35,595 nucleotides of DNA from Nitrospinaceae bacterium (GTDB lineage: Bacteria; Nitrospinota; Nitrospinia; Nitrospinales; VA-1). A program made the translations under genes and the position numbers. A model generated the notes under the pieces. The model had not been told where the DNA came from, made no database searches, and saw only the letters and a program-made list of their open reading frames with translations. The DNA lies in the NCBI GenBank assembly GCA_029261675.1, contig JAJDBA010000142.1, positions 1 through 35,595 of the forward strand. The letters run 5' to 3'. Of this stretch, positions 11,430-30,246 are shown one piece after another (positions within the stretch are counted from its first letter, which is position 1; every line of letters begins with the position of its first letter).

Positions 11430-11663
11430 ATGAGTTGGTTTATTGGTAAAAAAACGTACATCGTCTCGATCTTAATGCTTTTTGTGTCATCGATTAATTT
11501 AATCACCGGAGATATTTCTCTTAACGAGTTTATATCCAGCGATTCGATGTCGCTTTTGCTGGAGGCGATGGGACTTTCTGCATTAAGAGCGGGAGTAAAA
11601 CAAAATCAGAAGGAAATGATTCATGAAGTGGTTAAAAAAATTAACTTCCCTCATGCAGGATAG
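11430..11663 (+). CDS. Small membrane protein, possible holin-like phage protein
   Basis: 77 aa, one predicted TM segment (YIVSILMLFVSSINLITG) plus a second hydrophobic stretch. First gene of the phage-like cluster. Confidence 0.5.
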   Translation: MSWFIGKKTYIVSILMLFVSSINLITGDISLNEFISSDSMSLLLEAMGLSALRAGVKQNQKEMIHEVVKKINFPHAG

Positions 11664-11670
11664 GTTTTTT

Positions 11671-12024
11671 ATGACTTTGGAACTGTTTAGAACATTAACT
11701 CCCTGGGTAACTTCTTTTGCCATATTGATTCTTGGAATTGTTGGCTGGTTCGTTCGCTGGATGATTGGGGAAAATAATAGAAGGCTGAATGAGTTTAAGC
11801 AAAACCTGGAAGATATGGAAAATATCATTAGAGAACTGGAACGAACAAGACAAGAGGATCAAAAATATATTTTTGAACAATATGTCGATAAAAAAGCTTT
11901 TTATATTGCCGTTGGCAAAACAGAAGGGCTTATTACAAGAATCTTCAAGCAATTGAACGAACTGAATAAATCAGTCAATCAGATTGTGGGAGCTTTGAAT
12001 GCTGGAGAAAAAAAAATTGCCTGA
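11671..12024 (+). CDS. TM plus coiled-coil phage-associated protein (DUF2730-like architecture)
   Basis: Likely start at the internal Met (MTLELFRTLTPW). N-terminal TM, then a long charged helix. The ORF opens at 11623. Confidence 0.45.
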   Translation: MTLELFRTLTPWVTSFAILILGIVGWFVRWMIGENNRRLNEFKQNLEDMENIIRELERTRQEDQKYIFEQYVDKKAFYIAVGKTEGLITRIFKQLNELNKSVNQIVGALNAGEKKIA

Positions 12025-12463
12025 ACCTGTTTCAACAAGTCTGAACGAGCTCTCAAAACTAATCATAGAACTGGAAAAAAATAAAAAAATAGTACAGGAA
12101 CTGATCAAACAATCACCGGATGATTTGAAAAGTCATCGTGTTTATTGTGCTTATACCGGGAAAATCAGTGACGTTCTAAAACTAAAAATACAAATGGAAA
12201 AAATAGACCCTTCGCGTCTGCTATCTGAGGCTCTTCAGGCAATTGCAATTTATTTAGCTGAAAATGATGAAATTTCCGCAGCGCATTATATCGGTGACCA
12301 TGTTGAAGAAATTGAGGAAAAAGTAATACGGCAATGGTTGAAATATCAGGAAATCGAAAAAACAAATCAGGACGAACCACAGAAAAAAGAATTAAAGAAA
12401 GTCTCAAACCTTTTGGAAAAAGAAGCACCGAACAAAAAGAAAGGCATAAAGAAAAAGCACTGA
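11999..12463 (+). CDS. Hypothetical helical protein, positional candidate for terminase small subunit
   Basis: 154 aa, helical and charged, directly upstream of the terminase large subunit. Confidence 0.4.
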   Translation: MLEKKKLPEPVSTSLNELSKLIIELEKNKKIVQELIKQSPDDLKSHRVYCAYTGKISDVLKLKIQMEKIDPSRLLSEALQAIAIYLAENDEISAAHYIGDHVEEIEEKVIRQWLKYQEIEKTNQDEPQKKELKKVSNLLEKEAPNKKKGIKKKH

Positions 12464-13926
12464 ACGATCTAAAGTTTTTTGCAAAACATTATTTTCCTCA
12501 TCATCTTACGGAAAATTGTTCAGCAATGCATAAAGAAATGTTCATACATTTTCAGGAACAGATCCTAGAATCAGAACTTTCAGGTAAAGGTAGCAAAGAA
12601 GCATTGGCCGCTCCTCGTGGAAACGCAAAATCAACCATAACATCTTTGATTGTTCCACTTTGGAGCATTGTTGGTTCCAGGAAAAAATTTATCGTCATCA
12701 TTTCTGATACCTCAGAACAAGCAGAAGAATTCCTCGAACAGATCAAAGCAGAACTGGAAGCTAATGAAAGACTGATTGAAGATTTTCCTGAAGCTTGTGG
12801 GTCTGGCCGAACATGGAAGGCTTCGAAACTTGTAACGGGAAATGGAATAGCCGTTCGCTGCTGGGGAAAAAGAAAACGTTTGCGAGGCGCTCGGCATGGA
12901 AACCGCAGACCCGATCTCGTGATCTGCGATGATTTGGAAGATGATGAAAACATTGATTCCCCGGAACAACGAGAAAAAGACAGAAAGTGGTTTTTTAAAG
13001 CGGTCATGAAGATTGGGGGTCGTTATACCGTCTACATTGTTGTTGGAACCGTGCTTCATTACGATTCCCTTCTCTCACGACTATTAGTCCGGCCTGGATG
13101 GCGGGGGAAGAAATGGAAAGCAGTTATTAAATGGTCTTCTTCGAAACTTTGGCAAAAATGGGAGGCATTTTACACCTCACGAACTATTGATGCGGAGAAG
13201 AAAGCGGAACTTTTTTTTAATAAAAATAAAAAGGAAATGTTAAGGGGCACAAAGGTTCTCTGGCCTGAAGGTGAACCTTATTATTATTTGATGACCATGC
13301 GGGTTTCTGATGGTCCTGCATATTTTGATTCTGAAAAACAAAATGAACCCGTAAATCCAGACGACTGTCTCTTTCAAGAGGAATGGTTTCAGTTTATTCC
13401 CGAACCGATCTTGGTAGATCAAAACAGCCGATTTTATTGCGCGGTCGATCCTTCGATGGGTTCTGCTTCCAAAAAAGCAGACCCTTCAGCCATTTTAGTT
13501 GGCGCAGTTAATTCAGATGGCATCATCGATATTATTCAGGCTGATATTCAAAAACGTCACCCCGATTCAATTATGGAAGCGTTATTTAATTATCACAAAC
13601 AATATAGGTTCGAACGGATCGTTATTGAAGAAGTTCAATTTCAACAATTATTTAAAGACCTGGTACTAAAAGAGGGAACTCGGAGAAAACTATACCCACC
13701 TGTGGAAGGGGTGAGACCCATCAACGATAAAACATTGCGGATATCCAAATTACAACCGCATGTAAAAAATGGACTCATTCGGTTTCGTAATAATCAAACC
13801 CTACTTTTGGATCAATTGAAGTATTTCCCAAAGGCTAGCCACGATGATGGGCCCGATGCTTTGGAAATGTTATTCAATTTAATTGCTTCCGGTTTTTCAG
13901 GACCCCGCATCCGTAGAGTGGTTTGA
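12334..13926 (+). CDS. Phage terminase large subunit
   Basis: Walker A-like AAPRGNAKST, Walker B RPDLVICDDLEDDENI, nuclease-type FYCAVDPSMG...DPSAILVGA and late acidic DDGPDALEMLF. Start uncertain, since the first 43 codons overlap the upstream ORF. Confidence 0.92.
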   Translation: MVEISGNRKNKSGRTTEKRIKESLKPFGKRSTEQKERHKEKALNDLKFFAKHYFPHHLTENCSAMHKEMFIHFQEQILESELSGKGSKEALAAPRGNAKSTITSLIVPLWSIVGSRKKFIVIISDTSEQAEEFLEQIKAELEANERLIEDFPEACGSGRTWKASKLVTGNGIAVRCWGKRKRLRGARHGNRRPDLVICDDLEDDENIDSPEQREKDRKWFFKAVMKIGGRYTVYIVVGTVLHYDSLLSRLLVRPGWRGKKWKAVIKWSSSKLWQKWEAFYTSRTIDAEKKAELFFNKNKKEMLRGTKVLWPEGEPYYYLMTMRVSDGPAYFDSEKQNEPVNPDDCLFQEEWFQFIPEPILVDQNSRFYCAVDPSMGSASKKADPSAILVGAVNSDGIIDIIQADIQKRHPDSIMEALFNYHKQYRFERIVIEEVQFQQLFKDLVLKEGTRRKLYPPVEGVRPINDKTLRISKLQPHVKNGLIRFRNNQTLLLDQLKYFPKASHDDGPDALEMLFNLIASGFSGPRIRRVV

Positions 13927-13953
13927 TGTTTTGAGTTTGCGAGTAAAAATTCA

Positions 13954-14157
13954 GTGGAGAAAACTATGAAAAATGCTTGTCAATTTATGGTTCAAGAAAG
14001 TTCTAGACGGAAAATTTGTGTTTTAAAAAATATGGAACCTCCTATGAGAGAATTTGAATTTTGTGACAGCCTGGAAGATCCCTTTATTGAAAAACTGGTT
14101 AAGCAAATTGAGCAAGTGAATCGGTTTCATAATTGTTTTGAGGTAGAAACATTTTAA
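13954..14157 (+). CDS. Hypothetical protein
   Basis: 67 aa ORF between the terminase and spike genes; no recognised domain. Confidence 0.4.
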   Translation: MEKTMKNACQFMVQESSRRKICVLKNMEPPMREFEFCDSLEDPFIEKLVKQIEQVNRFHNCFEVETF

Positions 14158-14330
14158 AAACCAATCTTGCGACAAATAAATCTGCATCTCTTCAGGTTGT
14201 TTAGGATTCTATATTTGTATGAGAAAGTTTAAACCTCCTCTTACTTATTGCAAGTATGGAATTCTTTACAACTACTTTTTTAATTTATAAAAAACGTTTT
14301 AAAAATATCAAAAAAATTGAGGAAAAAAAT

Positions 14331-14627
14331 ATGGCACAAAACGCATTATTAGGATCAAGCCGATGGAGAGATAAGTATTCCCAGCAAGGACTGGAAAGCC
14401 CTCCGGTACATTGGGAGTCGGTTACCCCACATGCTGTGAATGAATTGTCACGGGTATGTCGAGTAATTTATTGCGGTGTTTCCGGTGACTTGGAAGTTCA
14501 AAATATTGAGGGTGAAGTAATTATTTTTAAAAACTGCCCTGCGGGATATGAGGCAAAAGGATTTTGGGTGCGAGTGGGTAGCAACTCATCAGGGTCTTCC
14601 GCTGGCGATTATTTGGCAGGCGAATAA
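14331..14627 (+). CDS. Head-spike-base-like protein (RcGTA rcc01079-like family)
   Basis: VTPHAVNELSRVCRVIYCGVSGDLEVQNIEGEVIIFKNCPAGYEAKGFWVRVGSNSSGSSAGDYLAG follows the pattern of spike-base proteins (xRALYVGxxGDVxVxxxxGxxVxFxxVPAGxxxPVRVxxVxxxGTTAxxIxA). The ORF opens at 14256. Confidence 0.55.
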   Translation: MAQNALLGSSRWRDKYSQQGLESPPVHWESVTPHAVNELSRVCRVIYCGVSGDLEVQNIEGEVIIFKNCPAGYEAKGFWVRVGSNSSGSSAGDYLAGE

Positions 14628-15412
14628 TGATTAAATTTGCAAGCCTGTCGCAAACGGCAACAAGTAGTAGATCTTTATCGGGTTCTCTGATCATTTCCAG
14701 TGATGCCAGAAAAATTTTCAAGGTGGATAAAAATGGGAATGAAATTGCAAACTCTATTCCTGTCAGTGCATTTTCAACAGTCAATCCACCACCCGATGGA
14801 TTGGCGTTAGATCCTTCTGATAATACGTTGTGGATTTCTACCGAACATAATAGCAGTGGCACAGCTAGCGACATTCGCGTATGGAATATTGATTTTGATA
14901 CGGGTTCACCCATCAGTTCATTTGGTGTTAATGAGTTTGATCCTTCTGCGTCTCAAATCGAAGGTATCTGTGTTGATCCCTGGGACTTCACACTTTGGTT
15001 GGTAGCAGATGGTCCGGGTACCATTAATCTCTACCATTTACAGAGAAATGGAGGTTTGATCCAGACTTATAATCTTTTTTCATTTGGTATTACTAGCCCA
15101 CAGGACTTATGTATCGATCCTGTTTTGCAGCGTATTATCATTACCGATAACCAGCAGAACTCTCTTTACTTTTTTGATTTGGGTATTAGTTTGGTCAATT
15201 CGGTAGTGATGGATCAACTGGATCCAATTCCTACTTCCTTGCAAGGTATTTCTTACGACCCGAGCAATGGGTTCTACTGGATAACCTATTATCAGCCTGA
15301 AGACTGGGTTGTATTAGTTGATCGGGAAGGACGACCTCAACATAAATTTTCTAATACAAACTATACAAATATTTCTTATGCCAACCCGACGGGTATAGCG
15401 GTTGGTTTGTGA
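14627..15412 (+). CDS. Beta-propeller (NHL/SdiA-regulated-like) protein, putative capsid spike or adhesin
   Basis: 261 aa with repeated blade-like motifs (DGLALDPSDNTLWISTE; EGICVDPWDFTLWLVAD; QDLCIDPVLQRIIITDN; QGISYDPSNGFYWITYY). Confidence 0.65.
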   Translation: MIKFASLSQTATSSRSLSGSLIISSDARKIFKVDKNGNEIANSIPVSAFSTVNPPPDGLALDPSDNTLWISTEHNSSGTASDIRVWNIDFDTGSPISSFGVNEFDPSASQIEGICVDPWDFTLWLVADGPGTINLYHLQRNGGLIQTYNLFSFGITSPQDLCIDPVLQRIIITDNQQNSLYFFDLGISLVNSVVMDQLDPIPTSLQGISYDPSNGFYWITYYQPEDWVVLVDREGRPQHKFSNTNYTNISYANPTGIAVGL

Positions 15413-15454: not shown

Positions 15455-16657
15455 ATGAAATTTTTCGATTGGTTCAAAAGTATCAATAAAAAAGAAAGTG
15501 CCGCTACTCGGGCCATGACTTTATGGGTACCGGGAGGGCAAGGGGTTTCTCCAAAAACAGATTACAGTTCTTTGGCAAAAGAAGGGTTCATGCAAAACAG
15601 TGTACTGTTTTCTTGCGTGAAAGAAATTTCCTCTGCTGTAGCCGGGGTTCCCTGGTTGCTGTTTCGGCGATCTTCAAATGGAGAACGCCGTGAAGTCTTA
15701 CAACATCCCTTGCTTGACTTGATTGAGCGGCCTAATCCTCTGCAGGGAAAATTTGAATGGATCGAATCTGCTGCCAGTTTTCTTTATTTATCCGGGAATG
15801 CCTATTTGGAATCTGTTGGCTCTGGAGACCGTTCTGGCATGCCAAAAGAACTTTATGTTTTGCGGCCTGATCGTATGCGTGTTGTTCCTGATCCGATTCA
15901 TTTTGTGGGTGGATATGAATATACCGTTTCGGGACGCAAGGTTAAGTTTTCCTCCGATAAAATTCTTCATCTCAAACTGTTTCATCCGCTGGATGATTGG
16001 TATGGCTTGTCTCCGGTGCAGGTAGCGTCTTTGGCGATTGATAAATTAAACAGTGGCGATAAATGGAATTCTTCATTATTGCAGAATGCGGCGGTTCCTT
16101 CAGGCGCATTGACTTGTAAGCAGCGTTTAACGGATGAACAATTTGAACGGTTGAAAACCGAAATGCGGCGGCAGATTCAAGGGGTTAACAATGCCCGTGA
16201 ACCGTTGTTATTAGAACAGGATCTTGAATGGAGGGAACTTGGAATTTCCCCAAAGGATATGGATTGGATTGAAGGTTTGAAGATGAGCGCCTTACAAGTT
16301 GCGCAGGTTTATAACGTACCGCCAGAGCTGATTGGCTTGAGTCCGGCGACTTACCAAAACCGTAAAGAAGCTCGTAAGGCGTTGTACACCGAGGTTATTT
16401 GTCCGTTTCTAAATCGTTTTCGGGATGCACTTAATAACTGGCTGGTGCCTCATTTTGGTGAAAACCTTTTACTGGATTACAACAAAGACGGTATAGAAGC
16501 TTTATCTGAAGACCAGGAGGCGTTGTGGAATAGAGTCAATCAGAGCGAGTTTTTAACGTTAAATGAAAAACGCCGTATGGTCGGTTTCGATGATGTTGCT
16601 GGTGGTGATCAGATTTCGCTGCGTTCACAAAATAATTTTAATACTGAAGGTGAATGA
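15455..16657 (+). CDS. HK97-type phage portal protein
   Basis: 400 aa. VKEISSAVAGVPWLLFRR, HPLLDLIERPNP, DDWYGLSPVQVASLAID, VAQVYNVPPELIGL, LNEKRRMVGFDDVAGGDQ. Confidence 0.95.
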   Translation: MKFFDWFKSINKKESAATRAMTLWVPGGQGVSPKTDYSSLAKEGFMQNSVLFSCVKEISSAVAGVPWLLFRRSSNGERREVLQHPLLDLIERPNPLQGKFEWIESAASFLYLSGNAYLESVGSGDRSGMPKELYVLRPDRMRVVPDPIHFVGGYEYTVSGRKVKFSSDKILHLKLFHPLDDWYGLSPVQVASLAIDKLNSGDKWNSSLLQNAAVPSGALTCKQRLTDEQFERLKTEMRRQIQGVNNAREPLLLEQDLEWRELGISPKDMDWIEGLKMSALQVAQVYNVPPELIGLSPATYQNRKEARKALYTEVICPFLNRFRDALNNWLVPHFGENLLLDYNKDGIEALSEDQEALWNRVNQSEFLTLNEKRRMVGFDDVAGGDQISLRSQNNFNTEGE

Positions 16658-16660
16658 TCT

Positions 16661-17335
16661 ATGAAAGAGATTAAATCGTTTCCATTCAAAATGGACGCTA
16701 TTAATGATGCTGGAGAGTTTTGTGGTTATGCTTCCACATTTGGGTCTATCGATCTGGGTGGTGACGTGGTGGAAAAAGGCGCTTATAAAAAAACACTGAT
16801 TGAGAGTAAAGGGCGATTCCCGATTCTCGACCACCACGATCCCACCCGTCAAATTGGTTGGAATGTTGAAGCGCATGAAGATGAACGTGGGTTATTTGTT
16901 CGCGGGTTACTCGATCTCAATGTTACTGCCGCACGCGAACGTCATAGTTTGATGAAGATGGCGCAAAGTATTGGCGGAAAAACTGGACTCTCTATTGGCT
17001 TTCGAGTCATTAAAGAAGAGGCAGATCGTAGTCGTCCAGAAATCCGTCGATTGAAGGAAGTTCAATTAATGGAATACAGCGTTGTCACATTTCCGATGAA
17101 CCAGCAGGCAGGGATCATCAGTGTGAAATCCAAAGAAGAAATGATCGGCCAGTTTTTGAAAAATGCTGTAGGAATGGATCCCCGGCAGACCCGATTAGTG
17201 ATCCGCAATTTAAAATCACTCCTTAAAAAAGAGCCGGGTAAACCCCACTCATGGACAAAAGGAGCCGATTATCAGGATGCCAGAATGCTTCGGCGCTCTC
17301 TGCGCCAACTATTGAATGCCGTAAAAGAGGCATAA
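16661..17335 (+). CDS. HK97-type prohead protease
   Basis: GYASTFGSIDLGGDVVEKGAYKKTL, PILDHHDPTRQIGW, GLSIGFRVIKEE, EYSVVTFPMNQQAGI: peptidase U35/S78 signatures. Confidence 0.95.
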   Translation: MKEIKSFPFKMDAINDAGEFCGYASTFGSIDLGGDVVEKGAYKKTLIESKGRFPILDHHDPTRQIGWNVEAHEDERGLFVRGLLDLNVTAARERHSLMKMAQSIGGKTGLSIGFRVIKEEADRSRPEIRRLKEVQLMEYSVVTFPMNQQAGIISVKSKEEMIGQFLKNAVGMDPRQTRLVIRNLKSLLKKEPGKPHSWTKGADYQDARMLRRSLRQLLNAVKEA

Positions 17336-17457: not shown

Positions 17458-18654
17458 ATGGAAGAGATCAAACAGCTTGTGGAAGAGCTCAATCAAGCCT
17501 TTCTGGAGCACAAAACCAAAAATGACCAACGGTTATCTGAAATTCAGAAAAAGGGGTATGCCGACCCGGTTCTGGAGGAACAGGTAGATTGCATTGCAAA
17601 GGAAATCCAGAGCCTTACCGAGGTTAAAGAACGTATTGAGAAAGTTGAAACGAAACTGAATCGTCCTGGAATGGGCCTAGGGGAAAATGAAAAATACGAC
17701 CCTCATTCACAAGCAAGAAAACAAGCTGTGGTGCATTACTTGCGAAAAGGGGAAGGGTTATTGTCGGCTGAAGAGGTCAAGCTTCTTTCTTCAGACAGCG
17801 ACCCGGATGGGGGTTACTGGATGACTCCAGACATTTCTGAGCATGCAGTACAGAAAGTTTTTGAAACTTCTCCTATGCGCAACCTGGCAACGGTGGAAAC
17901 GATATCTACCGATGCTTTGGAAATTCCTGAAGATCTTAACGAAGCGGACAGTGGTTGGACGAGTGAACGTGCGTCTCGGCCTGAAACCAATACGCCGCAG
18001 ATCGGTGTACGTCGAATTCCTGTTCATGAACTTTATGCAATGCCGAAAGCAACACAAACATTGCTAGACGATTCACGCATCGATGTTGAAATGTGGTTAT
18101 CGATGAAGATTGCCGACAAAATGTCGCGCATCGAAAACGCTTCGTTTATCAACGGTGATGGAACAGGAAAGCCACGAGGTATTCTTACCTACACGGCAGG
18201 TATGACAAATCCGGGTGAAGTACAGCAAATCAATAGCGGTAATGCCAGCTCATTGACTGCTGATGGACTACGCACGCTCTTCTATGCTTTGAAAAGTCCA
18301 TACATCCCTAATGCAAAATGGTTGATGTCGCGTAGTGCTATTGAAGAAGTTTCTAAGCTGAAAGATTCCAGCGGTTCTTATATCTGGCAGCCGGGATTTC
18401 AAGAAGGTGAACCGCAAACCTTGCTCGGTCATGCAATTGAACGTATGGAAGATATGCCACAAGTTGCAGCTAATTCCCTGTCGGTTGCATTTGGTGATTT
18501 CAGTCAAGCTTATACCATCGTTGATCGTATGGGCCTGCGTGTGCTTCGCGATCCATTCAGCTCGAAACCGTTCGTTTTGTTTTACACAACTAAACGCACC
18601 GGTGGAGATGTGACGAATTTCGAAGCCTTCGCTATCCAAAAAACCGCCGCATAA
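17458..18654 (+). CDS. HK97-fold major capsid protein
   Basis: N-terminal coiled-coil delta-like domain, then DPDGGYWMTPDISEHAVQKVFETSPMRNLATVETIS, INGDGTGKPRGIL, LLGHAIERMEDMPQ, AFGDFSQAYTIVDRMGLRVLRDPFSSKPFVLFYTTKRTGGDV. Confidence 0.96.
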   Translation: MEEIKQLVEELNQAFLEHKTKNDQRLSEIQKKGYADPVLEEQVDCIAKEIQSLTEVKERIEKVETKLNRPGMGLGENEKYDPHSQARKQAVVHYLRKGEGLLSAEEVKLLSSDSDPDGGYWMTPDISEHAVQKVFETSPMRNLATVETISTDALEIPEDLNEADSGWTSERASRPETNTPQIGVRRIPVHELYAMPKATQTLLDDSRIDVEMWLSMKIADKMSRIENASFINGDGTGKPRGILTYTAGMTNPGEVQQINSGNASSLTADGLRTLFYALKSPYIPNAKWLMSRSAIEEVSKLKDSSGSYIWQPGFQEGEPQTLLGHAIERMEDMPQVAANSLSVAFGDFSQAYTIVDRMGLRVLRDPFSSKPFVLFYTTKRTGGDVTNFEAFAIQKTAA

Positions 18655-18687: not shown

Positions 18688-18758
18688 CCCCCCCAACCTC
18701 CCCTTATCAGGGGAGGGGTTTTAAAAACTTCCCCCTGATAAGGGGGATTGAGGGAGTT
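18688..18758. repeat. Imperfect long palindromic intergenic repeat
   Basis: CCCCCCCAACCTCCCCTTATCAGGGGAGGGGTTTTAAAAACTTCCCCCTGATAAGGGGGATTGAGGGAGTT; the arms are imperfect reverse complements. Confidence 0.8.
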
Positions 18759-18788: not shown

Positions 18789-19168
18789 ATGAGAGATATT
18801 AAAAATAATTTTGATGCGGTCAATTCTATTGATCCTGATGATTACACGGCTGATGTAAATGGAGCGGGGATAGACCTCCGCGCATTTGACGGATCGGCCG
18901 TGGTGTTCAGTGTTGGTACTGTCACCGATGGAACACATACACCGAAGATTCAGGAGTCGGATGACAATTCGAACTGGAATGATGTAAATGCAAGCGATCA
19001 AGAAGGTTCATTGGTTGATTTGGCCTCTGACACCAATCAACGGGTTGGATACAAAGGCAGCAAACGCGCTACCTTCGCTCTGTTTTGACCATTGCGGGTG
19101 CTACCACAGGTGCCCAGGTAGCGGCGTTGGTGGTTCGCGGAATTCCACATCATGTTCCTGTTATTTGA
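18789..19168 (+). pseudogene. Phage head/tail protein with an apparent frameshift near 19065-19070
   Basis: Frame 0 ends ...GYKGSKRATFALF* (19088). The alternate frame from 19070 reads YLRSVLTIAGATTGAQVAALVVRGIPHHVPVI* to 19168, the C-terminus expected for such proteins. Junction is AAACGCGCTAC. Confidence 0.7.
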
Positions 19169-19228
19169 TCCTACATTTTCTCTTTTCCGGTTTTCCGGGA
19201 AAGGGTGAAATCTTTCTGGGAAAAAATT

Positions 19229-19438
19229 ATGAAAATTAAAATGCTCAAAACCCGGCAGGGATCTCCCGATGGTATTTCGGTTGTTACCTATTGCGCTGAT
19301 GACGTTGTTGATATTCCCGATGAACTTGCAATAGTTTTTCTTCGCAAACGCTGGGCCAAGAAAAATGAAACCAAAAACTTGTGCAAGGCTCCAGAAAATA
19401 AGAGAGCCAAAACTCGAAAAAAAACGGTTAAAAAATAA
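19229..19438 (+). CDS. Small hypothetical phage protein
   Basis: MKIKMLKTRQGSPDGISVVTYCADDVVDIPDELAIVFLRKRWAKK with a basic tail. Position fits a small head-completion accessory gene. Confidence 0.5.
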   Translation: MKIKMLKTRQGSPDGISVVTYCADDVVDIPDELAIVFLRKRWAKKNETKNLCKAPENKRAKTRKKTVKK

Positions 19439-20073
19439 TGGCCTTAAAAATAAAAACGCCTCCTCTTATAGAACCGGTTACCCTTGCTGAAGTCAAAAGC
19501 CTGCTGCGTATTGATGATGGTGACGATGATACTTTGATTTCTTCAATGATTACGGCAATTCGTCAACGAGCTGAGGAATGGACGCGCAGATCTTTTTTAA
19601 CGCAAACCTGGACGCTTTGGTTAGATGAATTTTCTTTCCGGCCTGGGAATACGCTAAACAAATTGAATGGGCGGGTCATTATCATTCCTCGACCTCCTAT
19701 GCAGTCGGTTGTTCATATAAAGACCTACGATAGTGATAATTCCACGGCAACTTTTGATGCCAGTGACTATTTTGTCGACACTGCACCTTCTCCGGGAAGG
19801 GTCGCCTTGAATGACAACAGTTCCTGGCCTACTTCGCTGAGAAAATTCAGCGCGGTTGAAGTCGAATTCATTGCAGGTTATGGATCGACTGCCAGTGATG
19901 TGCCTGAAGGAATCAAACAAGGTATGTTGCAATGGATAAAACTGTTGTTTGCTAATAAATCAAAACTGTATGAATCGGATGAATCGACTCTAGGGTTATT
20001 AGAGATGAACCAAATACCGATTCCACCTTTGGTGATGATGCTTTGGGAACCTTATAGGTTGGTACAACTTTAA
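19438..20073 (+). CDS. Head-tail connector (gp6-like)
   Basis: PPLIEPVTLAEVKSLLRIDDGDDDTLISSMITAIRQRAEEWTRRSFLTQTW is a classic connector N-terminus. Confidence 0.9.
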   Translation: MALKIKTPPLIEPVTLAEVKSLLRIDDGDDDTLISSMITAIRQRAEEWTRRSFLTQTWTLWLDEFSFRPGNTLNKLNGRVIIIPRPPMQSVVHIKTYDSDNSTATFDASDYFVDTAPSPGRVALNDNSSWPTSLRKFSAVEVEFIAGYGSTASDVPEGIKQGMLQWIKLLFANKSKLYESDESTLGLLEMNQIPIPPLVMMLWEPYRLVQL

Positions 20074-20093: not shown

Positions 20094-20567
20094 ATGTCCC
20101 TCTCCATTGAGTTTGACTCGTTTGAAAAAATTAAAAAGCTGTTTAAAAATCTGTCACTGGGGATGAAAAATGTGGCAAGCGAAACAGGTCGCCAGCTTAC
20201 CAATGAGGCCGAACATTTTGCAAAAGATCGAGTTCGTTCTCCCAGTCGTAAACCTGGAAGAGGGAGTGGGGCATATTTTCAGTCCATTCAATCCAGCTTT
20301 AAAGACGATCGAGTTTCTTTTACTGGTAATTTGAAAAGCGACTCTCCCATTGCTGGAATTATTGAGTTTGGCAGCCAGCCTCATATCATTCGTCCAAAAA
20401 ATAATAAACTTTTGTTCTGGTCGGGGGCCAGGCATCCGGTGAAGGAAGTGAAGCATCCGGGAACGCCAGCCTTTAGGGTTTTGGGAGATGCAGTAGAAGA
20501 AGCCTCGTTACAAACAGGTGAAATATTTGAAAAAGCTCTTAAAAAACAATTTGGAGACAATCGGTGA
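20094..20567 (+). CDS. HK97 gp10-like head-tail joining protein
   Basis: 157 aa. AGIIEFGSQPHIIRPKNNKLLFW...VKHPGTPAFRVLGDAVEEA is the gp10 family pattern. Confidence 0.85.
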   Translation: MSLSIEFDSFEKIKKLFKNLSLGMKNVASETGRQLTNEAEHFAKDRVRSPSRKPGRGSGAYFQSIQSSFKDDRVSFTGNLKSDSPIAGIIEFGSQPHIIRPKNNKLLFWSGARHPVKEVKHPGTPAFRVLGDAVEEASLQTGEIFEKALKKQFGDNR

Positions 20568-22239: not shown

Positions 22240-22635
22240 GTGAAAGTTAATTTGAACCCAGGTGTTACAAATATAGAAATCCCTTACGGAGAAGTGAAAG
22301 TGGTGCTGGTGTTGAGGAGTACCTCCTCTGAAGAATTTTGTCATTTTTTAAAGTCGCGTTTTAAGTTTGGAACAGGCGGTGGTGTCATGGAAGACCAATC
22401 TTCATCTGCACGCATTGATTTTATTGATCAATTATTGCTCGACATTAAAGTTAAAGATAAAGAGGGAAATATTGGCGAAGCCGTTTTTACAGATTCCGAA
22501 AGTGGAGAAGAAAAACCTTTAACCCCTGAGACTCCCGATTGGAAGAAATATGTGTTGCCGTCTTTCAAGCACGCGGCGGCTGTTGTTTTTGAAGGGGTCA
22601 GCGCAAAAATGGAAAACGCCGTTTTAAAAAACTGA
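22240..22635 (+). CDS. Tail assembly chaperone, short form (G-like)
   Basis: 131 aa after the tail tube gene with a GTG start. Ends in slippery sequence TTTTAAAAAAC followed by TGA. Confidence 0.7.
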   Translation: MKVNLNPGVTNIEIPYGEVKVVLVLRSTSSEEFCHFLKSRFKFGTGGGVMEDQSSSARIDFIDQLLLDIKVKDKEGNIGEAVFTDSESGEEKPLTPETPDWKKYVLPSFKHAAAVVFEGVSAKMENAVLKN

Positions 22636-22922
22636 TCAGCTACTTTCAGGACAATGTGCCCGAGCTGGAAGTAGCGTACCAAAATTTTTTAAATCGAGTT
22701 TATGAAGAAACGGATAATCCCGAATGGAATATTGAAAACCACCCGACACGAAAAATTCTATCTCGTTATACAAATGGTTTCCGAAACTGGGTGAACTATC
22801 TTGAAAGTATGCTTTTACTTAAAAAGGGTGGCTATCCGTTTGGCAAGAACGACTTGGATATTGTGGATTGGAAAGCCTTGGCTTTGATGGAGCAAATTCA
22901 AGGTAAAAGCCAACAGATTTGA
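22626..22922 (+). CDS. Tail assembly chaperone T-like extension, expressed by -1 frameshift (GT-like fusion)
   Basis: After -1 slippage on A AAA AAC (22626-22632), the frame continues CTG ATC AGC TAC TTT CAG GAC AAT GTG CCC... into the 88-aa ORF 22656-22922. Confidence 0.7.
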   Translation, partial: KKLISYFQDNVPELEVAYQNFLNRVYEETDNPEWNIENHPTRKILSRYTNGFRNWVNYLESMLLLKKGGYPFGKNDLDIVDWKALALMEQIQGKSQQI

Positions 22923-22931: not shown

Positions 22932-23210
22932 TTAAAAAATTTTTTTAAAAAAGTTGAAATAATAAACTGTTAAAGAAATATAAAATCCAAAATGAGGTAG
23001 CCAGGCCCAAACGGGTGGGGGTGTATCGCTATTGAACCATTCACTATTATTAGGAAAAATGATAACTAAACTTATAAGCGAAACAATAGCCATTGCCTTC
23101 ATCCAGAATTCATTTTTTGGTGCGGGTTCTTTTATACCGCACCGTGGGCAAAATAAAGCTTCTTGGGCGACTTGCTTTTGGCAGTTTTTACAGGGAAAGA
23201 GGAAGTTCAT
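22932..23210 (-). CDS. Zinc-ribbon plus TM protein
   Basis: FPCKNCQKQVAQEALFCPRCGIKE (CxxC-x12-CxxC), then two hydrophobic segments. Confidence 0.75.
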   Translation of the reverse strand: MNFLFPCKNCQKQVAQEALFCPRCGIKEPAPKNEFWMKAMAIVSLISLVIIFPNNSEWFNSDTPPPVWAWLPHFGFYISLTVYYFNFFKKIF

Positions 23211-23306
23211 TTTTTGTTTGAATAATTAGTTAATGGTTGAAAAATATTCTGTGAAATATATTAATTTATAGTTTCGCAAAGAAATACTCTATTGAGTTCG
23301 ATCTAA

Positions 23307-23702
23307 TTATTTTTGGTGGAGGTACCATACCCAACCGCATAAATTTATTATCAAAAATATATTACCTAAAAATTCGAAAAAGGGACTCCAGCGAAACCAG
23401 ACATCGTAATTTGCTATCAATAAAAATGTAAATAAAATTTGAGAAACAAATATATTGGTTTTTAGGTTTTCCTGGATGTCTGGATTGCGGATACCACAAT
23501 TTGGACATACATAAGCTTTTTGGAATACATCGGTTTCACAAGTTCTACAAGGTATTAAGGGGCTTGTGATTTTAGTTTTTCCTAATGAAGAGCTGTCTAA
23601 GTTACTTTGGACGATTTTAGGAATGGGTATTCCGCAGTTGGGACAGGTCACGGCTTTATCACTGATTTCTTTTCCGCATTCTTTACAGGGAGTTAATGGC
23701 AT
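23307..23702 (-). CDS. Double zinc-ribbon plus TM protein
   Basis: PCKECGKEISDKAVTCPNCGIPIP and PCRTCETDVFQKAYVCPNCGIRNP, then TM segments. Confidence 0.78.
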   Translation of the reverse strand: MPLTPCKECGKEISDKAVTCPNCGIPIPKIVQSNLDSSSLGKTKITSPLIPCRTCETDVFQKAYVCPNCGIRNPDIQENLKTNIFVSQILFTFLLIANYDVWFRWSPFFEFLGNIFLIINLCGWVWYLHQK

Positions 23703-23750
23703 TTATATTAGGTAATTTATTAAAAAGGAATTTACTTTTTATGGCATATA

Positions 23751-24046
23751 TCATTTAACAAAAATTGAAAAAAGCAATACTAGAACCACCATTGAAAAAA
23801 ATATATTAAATAGTGTATTGCATTCATGACAGGGGAAATAGGTTCCACAGGTGTCACAAAACCTTTGTCCATATTTTATTGAAGTACGGCACTTTCTACA
23901 GAAAACGGGAAGGGGCTTAAAATATAGCCCCTTAGATTTTTCGGGGGGGGGTATTTCATCCGCGGGATAGGTATCCCGCAGTTGGGGCAAGTCACGGCTT
24001 TATCACTGATTTCTTTTCCGCATTCATTGCATGGAATCAAGGCCAC
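23751..24046 (-). pseudogene. Double zinc-ribbon plus TM protein, split by a C9 homopolymer
   Basis: A GTG start at 24046 gives (V/M)ALIPCNECGKEISDKAVTCPNCGIPIPRMKYPPP in one frame. ORF 23751-23990 carries PPPEKSKGLYFKPLPVFCRKCRTSIKYGQRFCDTCGTYFPC plus TM in another. They meet at poly-C9 (poly-G on plus, 23943-23951). Confidence 0.65.
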
Positions 24047-24118
24047 CTAGCTAAACTCCTTTTTGATTAAGAAAAGGAAGAAGACAATAAAATCATATTT
24101 TATTCAGAGCTATAGCAA

Positions 24119-24229
24119 TCAGAACCATGTGCCGCAATGAACACAAATGGAATGTCTTTCTTTTACTTTGCCTTTGCATTTTCTACATAAGTCTTCGTTG
24201 TCGTTGATGAACCATTGCCAGAGTGCCAT
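24119..24229 (-). pseudogene. Truncated tandem copy of the 24234-24437 zinc-ribbon gene
   Basis: Encodes MALWQWFINDNEDLCRKCKGKVKERHSICVHCGTWF*, nearly identical to the first 36 residues of the neighbouring gene. Confidence 0.75.
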
Positions 24230-24233
24230 AGAG

Positions 24234-24437
24234 TTAACTGGAATAAAATTCAATTATATAGAGCAGTACAATTACTAGAATAAGAACAACAAATGTAAGG
24301 GTCCTTTTATTTGCTTCAGTGCAAGGGAACCATGTGCTGCAATGAACGCAAATGGAATGTCTTTCTTTTACCTTGCCTTTACATTTTCTGCAAAGATCGT
24401 CATTGTCATTGATGAACCATTGCCAAAGTGCCATGGG
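24234..24437 (-). CDS. Zinc-ribbon plus TM protein
   Basis: MALWQWFINDNDDLCRKCKGKVKERHSICVHCSTWFPCTEANKRTLTFVVLILVIVLLYIIEFYSS. Internal Met start inferred from the paralogous copy; the ORF opens at 24476. Confidence 0.72.
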   Translation of the reverse strand, partial: PMALWQWFINDNDDLCRKCKGKVKERHSICVHCSTWFPCTEANKRTLTFVVLILVIVLLYIIEFYSS

Positions 24438-24492
24438 ATGCCCTGAAAAATTCTGTTTACCTTGATTATATAACAAAAATTTGGATTAAGGA

Positions 24493-25650
24493 TTGAAAAT
24501 GGTTACTTCGACTACGGTTAATACAAAAATTATTGTAAATTTTGAAGATAAATTTACTGAAGCGGCCTGTCAGGCTGTTGAAACTTATAGGAAATGCCTG
24601 GAGAATGCCTTCAAACTTCAAAAACAAACTCCATCTTCATTTTTGGAAAATGCAACGAAAGGGATTGAGCAATTTTCTAAATCGGTAAATGGGTTTAAAA
24701 AAGATAGTGATCAGGTTTTGCGAGAAATGGTTCGGATCCAAAAACAAAGTGAAGAAGCCGCGCCATCGGTAGATCTTTTTTCACAAGCCTTTGCAAGGCT
24801 TGAAGAAGATGCGATTAAAGTAAATACTATTTTATTGGGATTAGCCATCCCAACTGCAATTGTGGGGTTTATTGCTCTTCCTCCTCAAATACAGACTGTA
24901 ATGGCATCTTTAACTCTTTTATATGCCACTTGGAAAATAGGCCAAAGTTTGCCTGAGTGGAGAGTGAGAGATAAACCGATTGATGAATATTTAAAAACGG
25001 TGAGCGATTCCTTTGAAAACCTTGCCAGCGCAAAGCCTCTTGAGCTGCAAATTATTTCTCAGGATATTTCTGTGCAGTTGAGCGAGGTCGAAAGGCTTAA
25101 AAGACAGTTTGAAGCACAAAGAGGGCTTTTTCTTCACTTGAATCTGGACGATAAAGCAACGGATGAAGCTTTAAATGTTCGTAATAAACTGGAAAAGACT
25201 TTTAAAGACCCTATCACTCAAATTATAAAAGTTGAAGAAGTACAAGCTAGGATGACTTTTAGAAAATCACCGAATCCATCAGATTTAGGCGACAGTGGTG
25301 GTGATTCTTCTGGTAGTTCCAGCGGATCGGGTGACTCTGGTGGTGGTTTTGATGGTTCTTCTGTCAATCCGGGTGGATTTGATACTTTCCCTTCGTTTTC
25401 TGCAGGTATTGACCGCGTGCCCCGCGATATGCTGGCGATGATCCATAAAGACGAAACGGTTCTCACCAAAAGCGAAGCGGAAGAGCGGCGGCGTGGCAAC
25501 TCGGGTGGGCTGGCTATTCAACGTGTGAGTATTAATATGAATATGCCCGACTCTTTTAATCCTTCAAACATGAAACGGCAAGATTTTCGTCAGTTCGCTA
25601 TGAAGTTGCAAGACGAATTGCACCGCCTCGACAGAAGAAGGTCCTTATAA
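24493..25650 (+). CDS. Short tail tape-measure protein
   Basis: 385 aa. N-terminal helices, hydrophobic segment (LGLAIPTAIVGFIALPPQIQTVMASLTLLYA), Gly/Ser linker, C-terminal FSAGIDRVPRDMLAMIHKDETVLTKSEAEERRR typical of tape-measure C-termini. Confidence 0.7.
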   Translation: MKMVTSTTVNTKIIVNFEDKFTEAACQAVETYRKCLENAFKLQKQTPSSFLENATKGIEQFSKSVNGFKKDSDQVLREMVRIQKQSEEAAPSVDLFSQAFARLEEDAIKVNTILLGLAIPTAIVGFIALPPQIQTVMASLTLLYATWKIGQSLPEWRVRDKPIDEYLKTVSDSFENLASAKPLELQIISQDISVQLSEVERLKRQFEAQRGLFLHLNLDDKATDEALNVRNKLEKTFKDPITQIIKVEEVQARMTFRKSPNPSDLGDSGGDSSGSSSGSGDSGGGFDGSSVNPGGFDTFPSFSAGIDRVPRDMLAMIHKDETVLTKSEAEERRRGNSGGLAIQRVSINMNMPDSFNPSNMKRQDFRQFAMKLQDELHRLDRRRSL

Positions 25651-25756: not shown

Positions 25757-25964
25757 TCATCCTTCGATGAACTCAGGATGACGATTTAAAAATCCTTCAA
25801 ATGCGTGTCATGCTGAGCCGTCACCCTGAGCTTGTCGAAGGGTGAAGAATCTCGTCATTGCAAATACTTCTACAGGTTCCGTTAAGTAACCCAGAATAAA
25901 CTTTGATGCAGGTGTTCACGAGGCAATCTGGATCGCCGCGCTCGTTTCACTCACTCGCGATGAT
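25757..25964. repeat. Cluster of host-type dispersed intergenic repeats
   Basis: GTCATCCTTCGATGAACTCAGGATGAC (25757-25783), CACCCTGAGCTTGTCGAAGGGTG (25823-25845) and GAGGCAATCTGGATCGCCGCGCTCGTTTCACTCACTCGCGATGA (about 25919-25964) resemble common intergenic repeats. Confidence 0.7.
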
Positions 25965-26030
25965 GTTCTGTGTTTAAAGGGATTAATCGTTTAAAAAAAT
26001 AGTGAAAAATTTTGAATTTGGAGTTTGGTT

Positions 26031-26405
26031 ATGAGTTTTGGTTTTTATTTTCCAACTAAGGCAGCGCCTACGGCTCAATGGGTGCCTGCTACTTTGCCGG
26101 ACCACCCGGCGGTTGAACCTGTAGATTTTCCTGAACAGATCACTTCGGTTACTTCTGGCGGTACGCTATATGTCCAGGAAAAAGGCAATAAACTGGAGAC
26201 GTTTTCGCTTTCTTTCAGTCGCGTCAGTCAGACGGATCGAGACTCGGCATTGGCGTTTTTCGAAGCGGTTAAAAAATCGTTCAACAGTTTTGAATATGAA
26301 GATAGAACCGGGGCCTTGCACACGGTTCGGTGGATGAACCTTTTCGATTTCCAATTGGTTGTTTTTGGAAAATATTCGGGATCGATTGAATTACGCAAAC
26401 AATGA
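26031..26405 (+). CDS. Phage tail protein
   Basis: MSFGFYFPTKAAPTAQWVPATLPDHPAVEPVDFPEQ...FFEAVKKSFNSFEYEDRTGALHTVRWMN resembles small distal-tail proteins by content and position. Confidence 0.55.
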   Translation: MSFGFYFPTKAAPTAQWVPATLPDHPAVEPVDFPEQITSVTSGGTLYVQEKGNKLETFSLSFSRVSQTDRDSALAFFEAVKKSFNSFEYEDRTGALHTVRWMNLFDFQLVVFGKYSGSIELRKQ

Positions 26406-26418
26406 GTAACAGGAGACA

Positions 26419-26739
26419 GTGATGATGGATTGGAGTACTTGCAAGTTAGAAGATTTTTCGCTTGAAGTCGATGTAGAAGAAATTCAAGAAATTGGACAAC
26501 GACAAATGTTCCCGGTACGGGTTTTTTATAAAGACGGGTCTCTTGCTTTTCTTACATCGGTTCCTATTCGATCGGAATTTTATTTGCAACTTCGGCAACG
26601 AGAAGACTGGAAAGAAAAATTAATGACGATTTTAAACCAACGTGTAAAAAATGAAATCGCTGAAAAGATTCGTTGCCAACAAATGGCCATCGATGACAAA
26701 TTGGAGTTTATGGAGTCGGGCCGTAACACCATCGTTTGA
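26419..26739 (+). CDS. Hypothetical phage tail-region protein
   Basis: 106 aa ORF between two tail genes; no clear domain. Confidence 0.5.
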   Translation: MMMDWSTCKLEDFSLEVDVEEIQEIGQRQMFPVRVFYKDGSLAFLTSVPIRSEFYLQLRQREDWKEKLMTILNQRVKNEIAEKIRCQQMAIDDKLEFMESGRNTIV

Positions 26740-26782
26740 AAATTTTTAAATGAACGCCCTCAAGGAAATGAGTATCCAAAGA

Positions 26783-26842
26783 ATATTTTTATTTAACAGG
26801 CGTACCAAGCCACTGGTAATTAAACCCACTTTGTGGGATTAA
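26783..26842 (+). repeat. Dispersed palindrome-rich repeat, copy 2
   Basis: ATATTTTTATTTAACAGGCGTACCAAGCCACTGGTAATTAAACCCACTTTGTGGGATTAAG; see copy 1. Confidence 0.8.
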
Positions 26843-26848
26843 GGTAAT

Positions 26849-29740
26849 TTGATGAGAACTGATTTTACGACAGGGTTCACCAACGCACGGAACAAAAAAG
26901 CCAATGCACCTTTGAACCTATTGCAAATTGATTGGCCTCAGATGAATGGACTGCCTGCGCTTACTCTTCGTTTGACAGATCGCAGCGGTATCCAAATTGA
27001 CGGGAATGATTGGTATCCGTTGGTCAAGGACATGGGCAATATTGACCGGCTCGTTTCTGCGGATCGTTTGACTGCCAACTCGGGTACCAGCCTCTCTGTT
27101 GAAGTTGTAAATATTCCGGTGGATTTATTCGGTAACGATAAACGGTTTTCGCATCTTTTTCGTAACCGTCCGCCTGAAGCGGCGACGGTCAAAATCTATC
27201 AGTGGTTTGCAGGGGAGGGTCTGGTTGGTTCTGATTTTGCTGAAATTTTTGTTTCTCGGATGGGGGATCCCATCGCTTACGATGAGTCGACTTGCTCTTT
27301 TGATTTGGTAGATATATCAGAAAGCTATGGTTCGGGTGTATTAGGAAATGCTTTGAAGCTTGAAGATTACCCGGATGCGCCGGAAGATTCTGTAGGAAAA
27401 ACCAAGCCTATTGTGATTGGTTCGGTTGAGGATGCTCCTGGTATTTTAGTAAGAAAATCTCAGCAGACGGTGTTGACTTCGGTAGCGGTGCCTGGTGGAA
27501 CGATTTTAACGGTTGCTACCACTGATAAATTTCCACCTTCAGGAACATTGATTGTTAATGATGATGAAGTGGACTACACAAGCATCAACTCCACCCAGTT
27601 TTTGGGTTGCAGTGGCATCAATGAATATCATTATGCCGACGATGCGGTTTTGGAAAAGGTTTCGGACCATCGGTATTTATTCAGTGATCCGGCATATCCC
27701 ATAAAACAAATCAGTAATGTGAAAGTGGGCGGGCATCTGGTGGGCTCTTCAGATTATTCTACTAGCCTTATGCAGGGCGAGGTGGTGTTTAGCTCTAAAC
27801 CCAAAAAATCTGATTCTATAGATACTAAATTTCTTCAAGCTCAGAATGATCAGGTAGGTGCTGGGAACAATGCTGGGAGCCCGACAAACGCGACTCTTCC
27901 TAATAGTCCAACGAATTACGCTAGTATTAACCAGAGCAATAGAACCCTTTCATTAAAACAAACCGATAACTTGCCTAATATTGGAGAAATCGGAAAAGTA
28001 TTTTTGAGGGTAGAACATTTTGTTGAAGAAAAACTGCCTAACGATAGCTTGACAGCCCATATTACAGGAGTGGGGCAGGTTGGAACTTTATCTGCCCCTG
28101 CGGTGGATGACGTTGTGGTTGCAAGTGGCACCACGGACATCACTCACACCCACCTGGATACACTTGGTTTTCCGATTAGCGACCCTCAACATCAGCATAT
28201 CGAAGCGTTGCCACCGAAGATCACGCAAAGTGCATTGTCTGGTGTGGGAGGGATGCAGATCTACTTAAATTCAGGGCAAACGCACACAATCACTTTTCCC
28301 GACCCTGGTCCCGGCACTTGGGCAACAGTAGAATATGGAATTGCGTTTGAATGGGGAGGGACAGTAATAGGTGGATCTTATCAAGCCGTTACTGCAACCT
28401 CACAATGTAATTCCGGATTTGGATATTTGCTTTGGAATAGGAGCGGAATAACGCAGACCTATACCACAGGTGGAAATATTGATAACGATTGTAATGTTAT
28501 CAAGATCAATCATAACACCAGCAATATCAATATGTATATTCGATCTGCAACGCGAGTGATTACGATGGCAACTCCTAATCCGGTTTCAACGCAATCTACA
28601 AATATTTCTACTTCCAAGACAGGTGGGCTTTCTCCACATTCCTCTAATTCAAGTGTTAATTCCACGGCAGAAAAAGCGACACGGAGCGTTGTTGATTTGT
28701 TTGACATTACCTCTCATGTGAACGGCGACTGGAACTGGTTTGAAAATCGCGAAAGCCAGGTTCAATACAATGGGTCGAGCGATGGACGTACGGCCTTCGT
28801 TGTTCATCTGGCTTATGAAATTGAATATGCGCGCCGTCGGATTGAGTTTACTGATGAAGTATCCGCCCAAATTGAAGGAGTCAAAGATGATGGGAGTATT
28901 ACAGGTGTTGCCGATTCTTTAATAGAACGCCCAGATCATATTTATAAATGGTCAATCATGAATGGTTTGAATTTGGATTCTTCTGTTATTGATAGCGCTT
29001 CAATGAGTCAGGCAGGAACCTTATTTGATAACTCGGGTTATTTGCTGGGGGGTATTGTGAATGAAAAAATTTCTTATTTAGATTTATGGCAAAGATGGGG
29101 GAAAGAGTGTCGAGCTTATTTTTATTGGGATCTAGGAAAAGCAAAAATTCTTTTTCGTCCTTTGAATTTATCTACAACAGCTACCGTTGCGGATAAAATA
29201 ATTCCTGGCAATATGGTTTTGGTTGATCCAAATGGTGTGGTTGAATTTAATGTGACGAGAAACCCTATTAATAATGTTGTGAATAAGTTGGACCTTAAAT
29301 ATAACCGAAAATGGACCGGAGATGACTATCAGGCAGTTGAGAGTTTGGTTGATTTAGAATCCCAAAATAAGTTTGGTATAAAAGAAAAACCAGGTGAATT
29401 TGATTTTAACTGGATTCGCAATCAGCCCATGGCTGTGGATATTGGGAATTTCTATTTGCAAGAGTTTAAAGAGCCACGGGATGTTTACGAAATTGGATTG
29501 CTTCTGGACAATATGGAAATTGAAAAAGGGGATATTCTTGAGGTCAACCCTCCGATAAATGAGCTTGATAAAGTTCACGCTCTTGTTCTGGGATCGGGAC
29601 GAGTGGTGGGTTCGGGTATTGAACAGAGAATGGATACTATAAAAATTGTTGCGAGGCAAATGGGAGGCGTTGTTGGAAATGAAGGGTTTGGTTTGCAGGT
29701 TTTTGGAACAAGTGGATTTGCAGGGGTTGAAAGAAATTAA
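26849..29740 (+). CDS. Large tail hub / host-specificity protein
   Basis: 963 aa. N-terminal TDFTTGFTNARNKKANAPLNLLQIDWP...LTLRLTDRSGIQIDGNDWYPLV tail-baseplate type, KPIVIGSVEDAPGILV, a fibre-like middle, and a C-terminal hub-like part. Confidence 0.7.
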   Translation: MMRTDFTTGFTNARNKKANAPLNLLQIDWPQMNGLPALTLRLTDRSGIQIDGNDWYPLVKDMGNIDRLVSADRLTANSGTSLSVEVVNIPVDLFGNDKRFSHLFRNRPPEAATVKIYQWFAGEGLVGSDFAEIFVSRMGDPIAYDESTCSFDLVDISESYGSGVLGNALKLEDYPDAPEDSVGKTKPIVIGSVEDAPGILVRKSQQTVLTSVAVPGGTILTVATTDKFPPSGTLIVNDDEVDYTSINSTQFLGCSGINEYHYADDAVLEKVSDHRYLFSDPAYPIKQISNVKVGGHLVGSSDYSTSLMQGEVVFSSKPKKSDSIDTKFLQAQNDQVGAGNNAGSPTNATLPNSPTNYASINQSNRTLSLKQTDNLPNIGEIGKVFLRVEHFVEEKLPNDSLTAHITGVGQVGTLSAPAVDDVVVASGTTDITHTHLDTLGFPISDPQHQHIEALPPKITQSALSGVGGMQIYLNSGQTHTITFPDPGPGTWATVEYGIAFEWGGTVIGGSYQAVTATSQCNSGFGYLLWNRSGITQTYTTGGNIDNDCNVIKINHNTSNINMYIRSATRVITMATPNPVSTQSTNISTSKTGGLSPHSSNSSVNSTAEKATRSVVDLFDITSHVNGDWNWFENRESQVQYNGSSDGRTAFVVHLAYEIEYARRRIEFTDEVSAQIEGVKDDGSITGVADSLIERPDHIYKWSIMNGLNLDSSVIDSASMSQAGTLFDNSGYLLGGIVNEKISYLDLWQRWGKECRAYFYWDLGKAKILFRPLNLSTTATVADKIIPGNMVLVDPNGVVEFNVTRNPINNVVNKLDLKYNRKWTGDDYQAVESLVDLESQNKFGIKEKPGEFDFNWIRNQPMAVDIGNFYLQEFKEPRDVYEIGLLLDNMEIEKGDILEVNPPINELDKVHALVLGSGRVVGSGIEQRMDTIKIVARQMGGVVGNEGFGLQVFGTSGFAGVERN

Positions 29741-29784
29741 CAATGGATAAAAAAGTTTGAATATAAAATCTTGGAGATTAATGA

Positions 29785-30246
29785 ATGGCTAATACTTTCA
29801 CAGCAAATTTGAACCTGGCTATACCCGATCCGGGAGATCTAAATTGGGAAAATGAATATTCAGATTTATCAAACGCGGTTGATGATTTGGGTAACCTATT
29901 ATGCTTTAACGTTACCGTTCACGATGCTGCTGTTGACGGAACGGTTTTCTTTGATGGATTCATTCCCCAAGAAACTATTTCAGTCCGGGCTATAGGTATT
30001 TTTGCACTTATCCCTCCAACAGGACAAGACTTGATGGTTGATATTGTAAAAAATTCAACGGTACAAAGTAATGAAGGGATTTTGACCGATGGGAGCCAGT
30101 TTGAAAAAACTTCTCTTGGGACAACAATAACTTTTTCCAATAGTGATCGATTGGGTCTCAAATTTACTCAGGTGGGGTCTACCAATGCAGGGGATAAACT
30201 TGTCGTTACGATTTATTTTCAAAAAGAAGCCATTGCTGCGGCTTGA
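29785..30246 (+). CDS. Tail appendage/fibre-like protein
   Basis: MANTFTANLNLAIPDPGDLNWENEYSDLSNAVDDLG is a common start of tail-end proteins; the rest looks beta-rich. Confidence 0.55.
   Translation: MANTFTANLNLAIPDPGDLNWENEYSDLSNAVDDLGNLLCFNVTVHDAAVDGTVFFDGFIPQETISVRAIGIFALIPPTGQDLMVDIVKNSTVQSNEGILTDGSQFEKTSLGTTITFSNSDRLGLKFTQVGSTNAGDKLVVTIYFQKEAIAAA

Follow-up and report, generated by a model that had tools for sequence, protein, structure and literature searches.

What kind of element is a near-complete set of phage-type particle genes that lies directly beside dnaA in a bacterial chromosome? This question is raised by contig C142 (JAJDBA010000142.1) of a Nitrospinota (Nitrospinaceae) metagenome-assembled genome, whose 35,595 nucleotides form the whole stretch analysed and are called the window here. 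In the window, serS, a TPR gene, gyrA, gyrB and dnaA (9592-10962; Pfam Bac_DnaA) all lie on the minus strand, and a phage-type cluster starts divergently from dnaA on the plus strand at 11430. On the right side of the cluster, a receiver-domain response regulator gene (RR) and an XRE-S24 repressor gene, both on the minus strand, are followed by electron-transfer flavoprotein genes and rsmG. An earlier note on this DNA had described 11430-30246 as a near-complete HK97-type head and non-contractile tail gene set and had suggested a gene transfer agent (GTA) or a domesticated particle.

A GTA has been defined as a particle made of tailed-phage-derived proteins whose genome is fully endogenised and mostly inherited vertically, co-diversifying with the host; in addition, it encapsidates mostly random host DNA, its own genome is too large for the particle, and it delivers DNA to other cells (PMC9662315). 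The first three of these six features are found at the Nitrospinota locus, and the other three are matters for experiment. On this basis, a GTA is considered the best single explanation, with a probability of about 0.7, and the locus ranks as a strong candidate for a GTA that evolved independently. As far as gene content, position and descent can tell, the phage-derived particle locus is almost certainly old, under selection and passed on vertically.

Distribution, descent and loss of the locus

Homologs of the capsid gene were searched for in 148 relatives. Within the order, the cluster is present as a single copy per genome in 28 relatives, and capsid identity follows kinship, with 93-96% in the genus, 68-86% in the family and 60-68% in two other families of the order. 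Outside the order, only one distant match (34%) was found among the 148 relatives. A search with the large terminase subunit (TerL) gave much the same distribution. The gene order gyrA-gyrB-dnaA, cluster, RR-S24 and etfBA-rsmG is common to three families (f1, f2 and f4); on every contig of sufficient length the cluster adjoins dnaA, and RR, S24 and the etfB/etfA/rsmG side follow where that end is covered. The synteny comparison proposed in the earlier note thus revealed one fixed locus in many relatives, close kin among them.

The descent of the cluster was compared with that of its host in 25 genomes, using trees of dnaA and gyrB for the host and of TerL, portal, protease and capsid for the cluster. 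The two trees have 20 of 22 splits in common (the best of 2000 label shuffles reached 3), patristic distances correlate with an r of 0.96, and the ratio of total tree lengths is 0.97. The dN/dS values, a second check that had been proposed, are mostly 0.02-0.3 across the cluster, with capsid, portal and TerL close to dnaA and gyrB, indicating purifying selection across nearly all cluster genes. Vertical inheritance of the cluster dates back to an early stage in the evolution of the order, with the genes maintained in working condition.

Several genomes retain remnants at the dnaA site. Only g1 and g2, the first genes of the cluster, are left in G029; G010 retains g2, g3 and a TerL fragment; and G058 has g1 to g3 and TerL, together with a broken S24 gene. 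From the other end, 28 residues of the tail appendage and RR remain in G032, RR and the end of S24 in G034, and RR alone in G026. In G005, G015 and G022, etfB is the next recognised gene after dnaA, and no cluster gene is present. In family f3 (G048), RR and S24 are the only parts found near dnaA, without head-tail genes; the gap in this genome (L173:1382-4370) holds a small holin-like open reading frame (ORF) and a 325-aa ORF. Judged by these remnants, the cluster was lost through irregular deletions at a single site and not by precise excision. A full-length orphan HK97 capsid gene, 59% identical to that of the window, lies near polysaccharide genes in G025 (C1; L188:14872-16071), a genome of the family without a TerL match.

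Because of the single-copy fixed site, the congruent trees, the low dN/dS, the intact terminase residues described below and the remnants in place, the cluster is regarded as vertically inherited, selected and domesticated. This agrees with the earlier suggestion of a domesticated particle of long residence. All structural genes are nevertheless of phage type, and the same order includes a prophage-like region (L251) whose tail module is related, as would be expected if the cluster were an ordinary temperate prophage or cryptic remnant that is merely common. With a fixed locus in three families, host-congruent trees, purifying selection, ragged losses and no integrase, this explanation is hardly credible, and a recent or temperate prophage was ruled out on these grounds together with the lack of a usable att repeat. 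The integrase and att repeats named in the earlier note as contrary signs were not encountered: the contig has no match to integrase-type recombinases (PF00589), of which 11 are found elsewhere in the genome. The long-range direct repeat spanning the cluster (11180-11202 and 30319-30341; 23 nt, 83%) was rejected as an att pair; one copy lies inside the RR gene, and excision at this repeat is at odds with the RR genes and appendage remnants kept in loss lineages. No tRNA that could serve as an attachment site was found on either side of the cluster in the relatives that were scanned.

Packaging, head and tail genes

Profile searches gave clear matches for TerL, portal, protease, capsid, connector, neck and tube, so the near-complete head and short non-contractile tail gene set of 11430-30246 was borne out, as was the lack of any recognised integrase, replication gene or endolysin in the cluster. 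Also, no sheath was found among the cluster proteins. The proposed boundary is correct for the head-tail part, but the unit extends to 31643 since the RR and XRE-S24 genes belong to the cluster. Host-type repeats had been reported and are indeed present in the intergenic gaps, at 18700-18745, 21032-21101/26772-26841 and 25824-25842, the last of which occurs at four sites in the genome. Frameshifted genes had been reported as well; alignments to relatives run essentially end to end, and therefore no window gene looks frameshifted. The genes below are on the plus strand unless stated otherwise.

The cluster opens with g1 (11430-11663), which encodes a small membrane protein without a family match that is probably holin-like by its size, hydrophobic segment and place, and is 43-87% conserved at the same place in the order. 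The g2 product (11623-12024), with one membrane segment and a coiled coil, may be spanin- or holin-like; it has weak PHROG matches, including an Rz-like spanin, and is kept in three families. The third gene, g3 (11999-12463), directly precedes and overlaps terL and encodes an all-helical protein with a confident helical core and invariant HR and W residues; it is conserved in the order and is a candidate for the small terminase. TerL (12334-13926; phrog_38, 3e-116) has intact catalytic residues: Walker A PRGxAKST, Walker B, nuclease D372 and HDDGPDA are invariant, and the Walker motifs and nuclease acidic residues are also present in phage JBD26.

The best phage matches of TerL are D3112-like Mu-type phages (42%), which package by a headful mechanism. 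RcGTA, an alphaproteobacterial type I GTA, has been argued to descend from a headful-packaging phage (Esterman et al., PMC7947584), and a headful-packaging ancestor is plausible for the Nitrospinota cluster too. The cluster measures about 19-20 kb, and its ~19 kb far exceed the ~4 kb of DNA that RcGTA packages (PMC9662315), which was counted in favor of a GTA.

Downstream of terL, a small accessory ORF, g5s (13954-14157), is recognised in few relatives only. The variable slot between terL and portal holds genes for an accessory tail-fibre-like protein (14256-14627; phrog_12296, 5e-6), strong in host genus g1 only with weak fragments in genus g8, and for an accessory NHL/beta-propeller protein (14627-15412; PF01436, 4e-5), found in genus g1 only. 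In genus g14, ~6-7 kb of non-phage genes lie between terL and portal (L095:10362-16820 and L254), encoding a cytochrome c-like protein, membrane proteins and a 740-aa protein. The head genes proper are portal (15455-16657; PF04860, 4e-81), the S78 prohead protease (16661-17335; PF04586, 1e-24) and the HK97-fold major capsid protein (17458-18654; PF05065, 7e-82), followed by the small conserved virion-type protein g11 (18789-19088; phrog_5707, 9e-17), the small protein g12 (19205-19438), conserved in three families, and the head-tail connector or adaptor (19438-20073; phrog_442, 5e-26). The closest solved structures are the portal (Rcc01684, 6e-77), capsid (Rcc01687, 5e-74) and adaptor (Rcc01688, 9e-5 by profile) of RcGTA. 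A tailocin, being a tail without head genes, was rejected, as portal, capsid, protease and TerL are all present and constrained.

The tail begins with the neck or tail completion gene (gp10-like; 20094-20567; phrog_5, 8e-10), the probable terminator (20564-21034; 41-92% conserved) and the tail tube (21179-22222; PF18906, 4e-14), the start of which is, by conservation, probably 21179 and not 21044. The assignments of terminator, chaperones, tape measure and appendage are positional. The putative tail assembly chaperones 1 (22240-22635) and 2 (22656-22922) move with the short tape-measure gene (24493-25650; 385 aa), the fastest-evolving gene of the cluster, which has near full-length relatives at 27-40% and a very weak phrog tape-measure match. 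Between them, on the minus strand, lie genes for four small zinc-ribbon membrane proteins (22932-24476). These genes had been taken for a foreign cassette, but they recur beside the tape-measure gene in several other genera and are therefore a resident part of the cluster, a resident moron. Tape measure, chaperones and zinc-ribbon genes form one module that follows the tube in most genomes and sits, whole or in part, between terL and portal in others.

The tail tip comprises the distal tail protein (26025-26405; weak matches to DUF2460, 0.008, and TIGR02217, the Rcc01695 family, 0.075), which is conserved in the order, the small protein g26 (26419-26739), kept between distal tail and hub genes in three families and in prophage L251, and the 963-aa hub (26849-29740). 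A structure model of the hub, of moderate confidence (mean pLDDT 69), resembles the siphophage tail-tip proteins lambda gpJ, T5 pb3 and JBD30 in Foldseek (E 1e-11 to 6e-6), and its relatives match baseplate PHROGs. The last gene encodes the tail appendage (29785-30246; 26-79% conserved in the order), a candidate receptor binder.

In family f2, the distal tail gene comes directly after the connector (loci L093, L095, L101, L103, L187 and L067). At this locus, five genomes of two genera and an IMG/VR fragment show no neck, terminator, tube, chaperone or tape-measure gene, and elsewhere in those genomes the only tube homolog found is the one in the G050 prophage. The remaining head and tail-tip genes of f2 are under purifying selection (dN/dS 0.03-0.27). 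The f2 lineages may either make tube-less particles or use tail parts that are not recognisable.

These f2 clusters, lacking tube, terminator, neck and tape measure, together with the lone intact capsid gene of G025, would suit a domesticated particle whose role is structural or does not involve DNA, such as protein delivery or a storage shell. Conserved TerL catalytic residues and the portal point to DNA packaging instead, and such a role is given a small chance. Bacillus PBSX is a conserved, repressor-controlled defective phage that packages host DNA without propagating itself, and the Nitrospinota particle could likewise package host DNA and be used for killing competitors rather than for gene transfer. 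A PBSX-like particle with bacteriocin activity has been reported (PMC8347963), and a complete tail with variable accessory genes would suit a killing particle. However, no toxin or immunity gene was recognised, and the f2 head genes are constrained though tube and tape measure are gone, which is odd for a tail-driven killer; selection on head, portal and TerL is at least as strong as on the tail, which alone does not discriminate. A killing particle is considered unlikely.

Control at the origin and a possible mode of action

The gene to the right of the appendage encodes RR (30262-30687, minus strand; PF00072, 6e-26), which is syntenic in f1, f2, f3 and f4. It is followed by the proposed master switch of the cluster, a self-cleaving-type repressor with two XRE helix-turn-helix (HTH) segments and an S24 peptidase domain (30750-31643, minus strand; PF00717, 2e-17). 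The IAAG motif with its AAG, the serine of SMEP (Ser217) and the lysine of LTAKY (Lys254) are invariant in 12 sequences. In family f1, S24 is present in 11 of 15 cluster-bearing genomes and in 0 of 24 cluster-less genomes (Fisher p 8e-7, a test that ignores shared ancestry); the four cluster-bearing genomes without it include one 59%-complete genome and fragmented assemblies. Because its presence tracks the cluster in this family, S24 is very likely the cluster's own repressor, and by analogy with the LexA/CI family it may respond to DNA damage.

The g1 gene diverges from dnaA across about 470 bp, and a hairpin before g1 recurs in most close relatives compared. In the window, this hairpin (GGGCCGGA-N-TCCGGCCC) lies at 11355-11402 and is possibly a leader terminator; in genus g1 it is preceded by a tRNA 3'-end-like stretch. 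Chromosomal GC skew, sampled in 20-kb pieces, flips sign at the cluster in both single-contig genomes sampled, G011 and G047, which places the locus at the replication origin. No DnaA-box cluster was found (TTATNCACA with one mismatch was seen 40 times against 36 expected), so the origin call is based on GC skew and gene context.

A mode of action can be proposed from these parts. Together with the neighbouring receiver protein, which would act as host input, the S24 repressor would silence the divergent dnaA-g1 promoter region until DNA damage or a similar signal leads to self-cleavage of the repressor. The g3 protein and TerL would then load host DNA into small heads by the headful route, as the cluster has no replication or excision gene that makes phage DNA. 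The short non-contractile tail would deliver this DNA to kin, and g1 and g2 would help to lyse the producer cell. In a more tentative and rather doubtful version, the GTA is built around the origin: the divergent region shared by dnaA and the cluster would tie particle production to replication status and DNA damage, packaged DNA would be biased toward origin-proximal sequences, and the f2 clusters would make a tube-less podovirus-like particle kept by selection. Alternatively, the cluster might work for a mobile element at another place in the genome, which would provide replication and be the DNA actually packaged; several integrases are present on other contigs, and the G050 prophage shares a distant tail module. 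No element of this kind was identified, and a cluster that worked for a mobile element would hardly be expected to show vertical descent and losses, which makes this split arrangement very improbable.

Several points weigh against a GTA. The locus is known from its genes alone, with no particle, packaged DNA or transfer observed. The cluster is absent from many members of the family and is therefore dispensable. No endolysin was recognised in it, g3 matched known small terminases neither by profile nor by fold, and no operator common to the dnaA-g1 and S24 upstream regions was found. The cheap-amino-acid signature of RcGTA-like proteins is also absent, as carbon per residue is not below that of phage homologs in a rough test uncorrected for GC content.

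Relation to known particles

A literature search for GTAs in Nitrospinota returned nothing relevant, which is not proof of absence. In the 2022 classification, three GTA groups with known genes, each exapted independently, were recognised (PMC9662315). If the GTA explanation is true, the locus would be one more independent lineage, with a fixed origin-side location, a different type of switch and a tube-less derivative, from a phylum to which abundant marine nitrite oxidisers belong. The repeated losses, mapped on the host tree, would offer a natural comparative system for why cells keep or discard GTAs. IMG/VR contigs L058-L068, listed as viral, are 66-96% identical to the cluster and are likely host chromosome fragments, so that pieces of such domesticated clusters would be filed as viruses in that database.

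RcGTA has the order TerL, portal, protease, capsid, connector, neck, terminator, tube, tape measure, distal tail and hub. The likeness to RcGTA that had been pointed out earlier holds for the similar gene order, but not for membership in the RcGTA clade. In a tree of capsid and portal, the Nitrospinota set forms one branch (100/100) with IMG/VR contig L070 as sister, and RcGTA falls among phages, which are at least as close in sequence as RcGTA. A single clade of Nitrospinota and RcGTA was rejected by the AU test (p-AU 0.00012), with the caveat that RcGTA has a long branch and an unusual composition. Profiles of tube, hub and distal tail gave no RcGTA match among solved structures. Since the common clade is rejected, the most fitting reading of the locus is that a related phage head, joined to a different tail, was domesticated independently, and that the likeness is a trace of related phage ancestors.

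Within the same order, L251 (G050:C12:11000-30999) has a homologous tail module, 25-42% identical to that of the window (terminator 31%, tube 42%, distal tail 40%, hub 33%, appendage 29%). It differs in its head and terminase genes, with a GpA-type terminase and a lambda-type portal by size and sequence look, in its 572-aa tape measure and in its locus, and is phage-like rather than a domesticated cluster. PBSX-like prophages also have conserved, repressor-controlled particle genes without self-propagation, whereas the Nitrospinota cluster has no recognised endolysin or killing function and is conserved across families of the order. BaGTA of Bartonella, a type II GTA, has been linked to run-off replication (PMC2697382). 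It is comparable, by its description, as a domesticated phage cluster with a replication link; the Nitrospinota cluster, in contrast, lies next to the ordinary origin of the chromosome, with no origin of phage derivation identified. The type I GTAs of alphaproteobacteria (Rhodogtaviriformidae), including RcGTA, are alike in gene order, short non-contractile tail and vertical inheritance. They differ in belonging to another phylum, in tube and hub, as those of Nitrospinota have no detectable sequence relative among the RcGTA structures, in their GafA/CtrA control as opposed to an S24-type repressor, and in the location of Rhodobacterales clusters near the terminus (PMC9836097), opposite to the origin-side locus of Nitrospinota.

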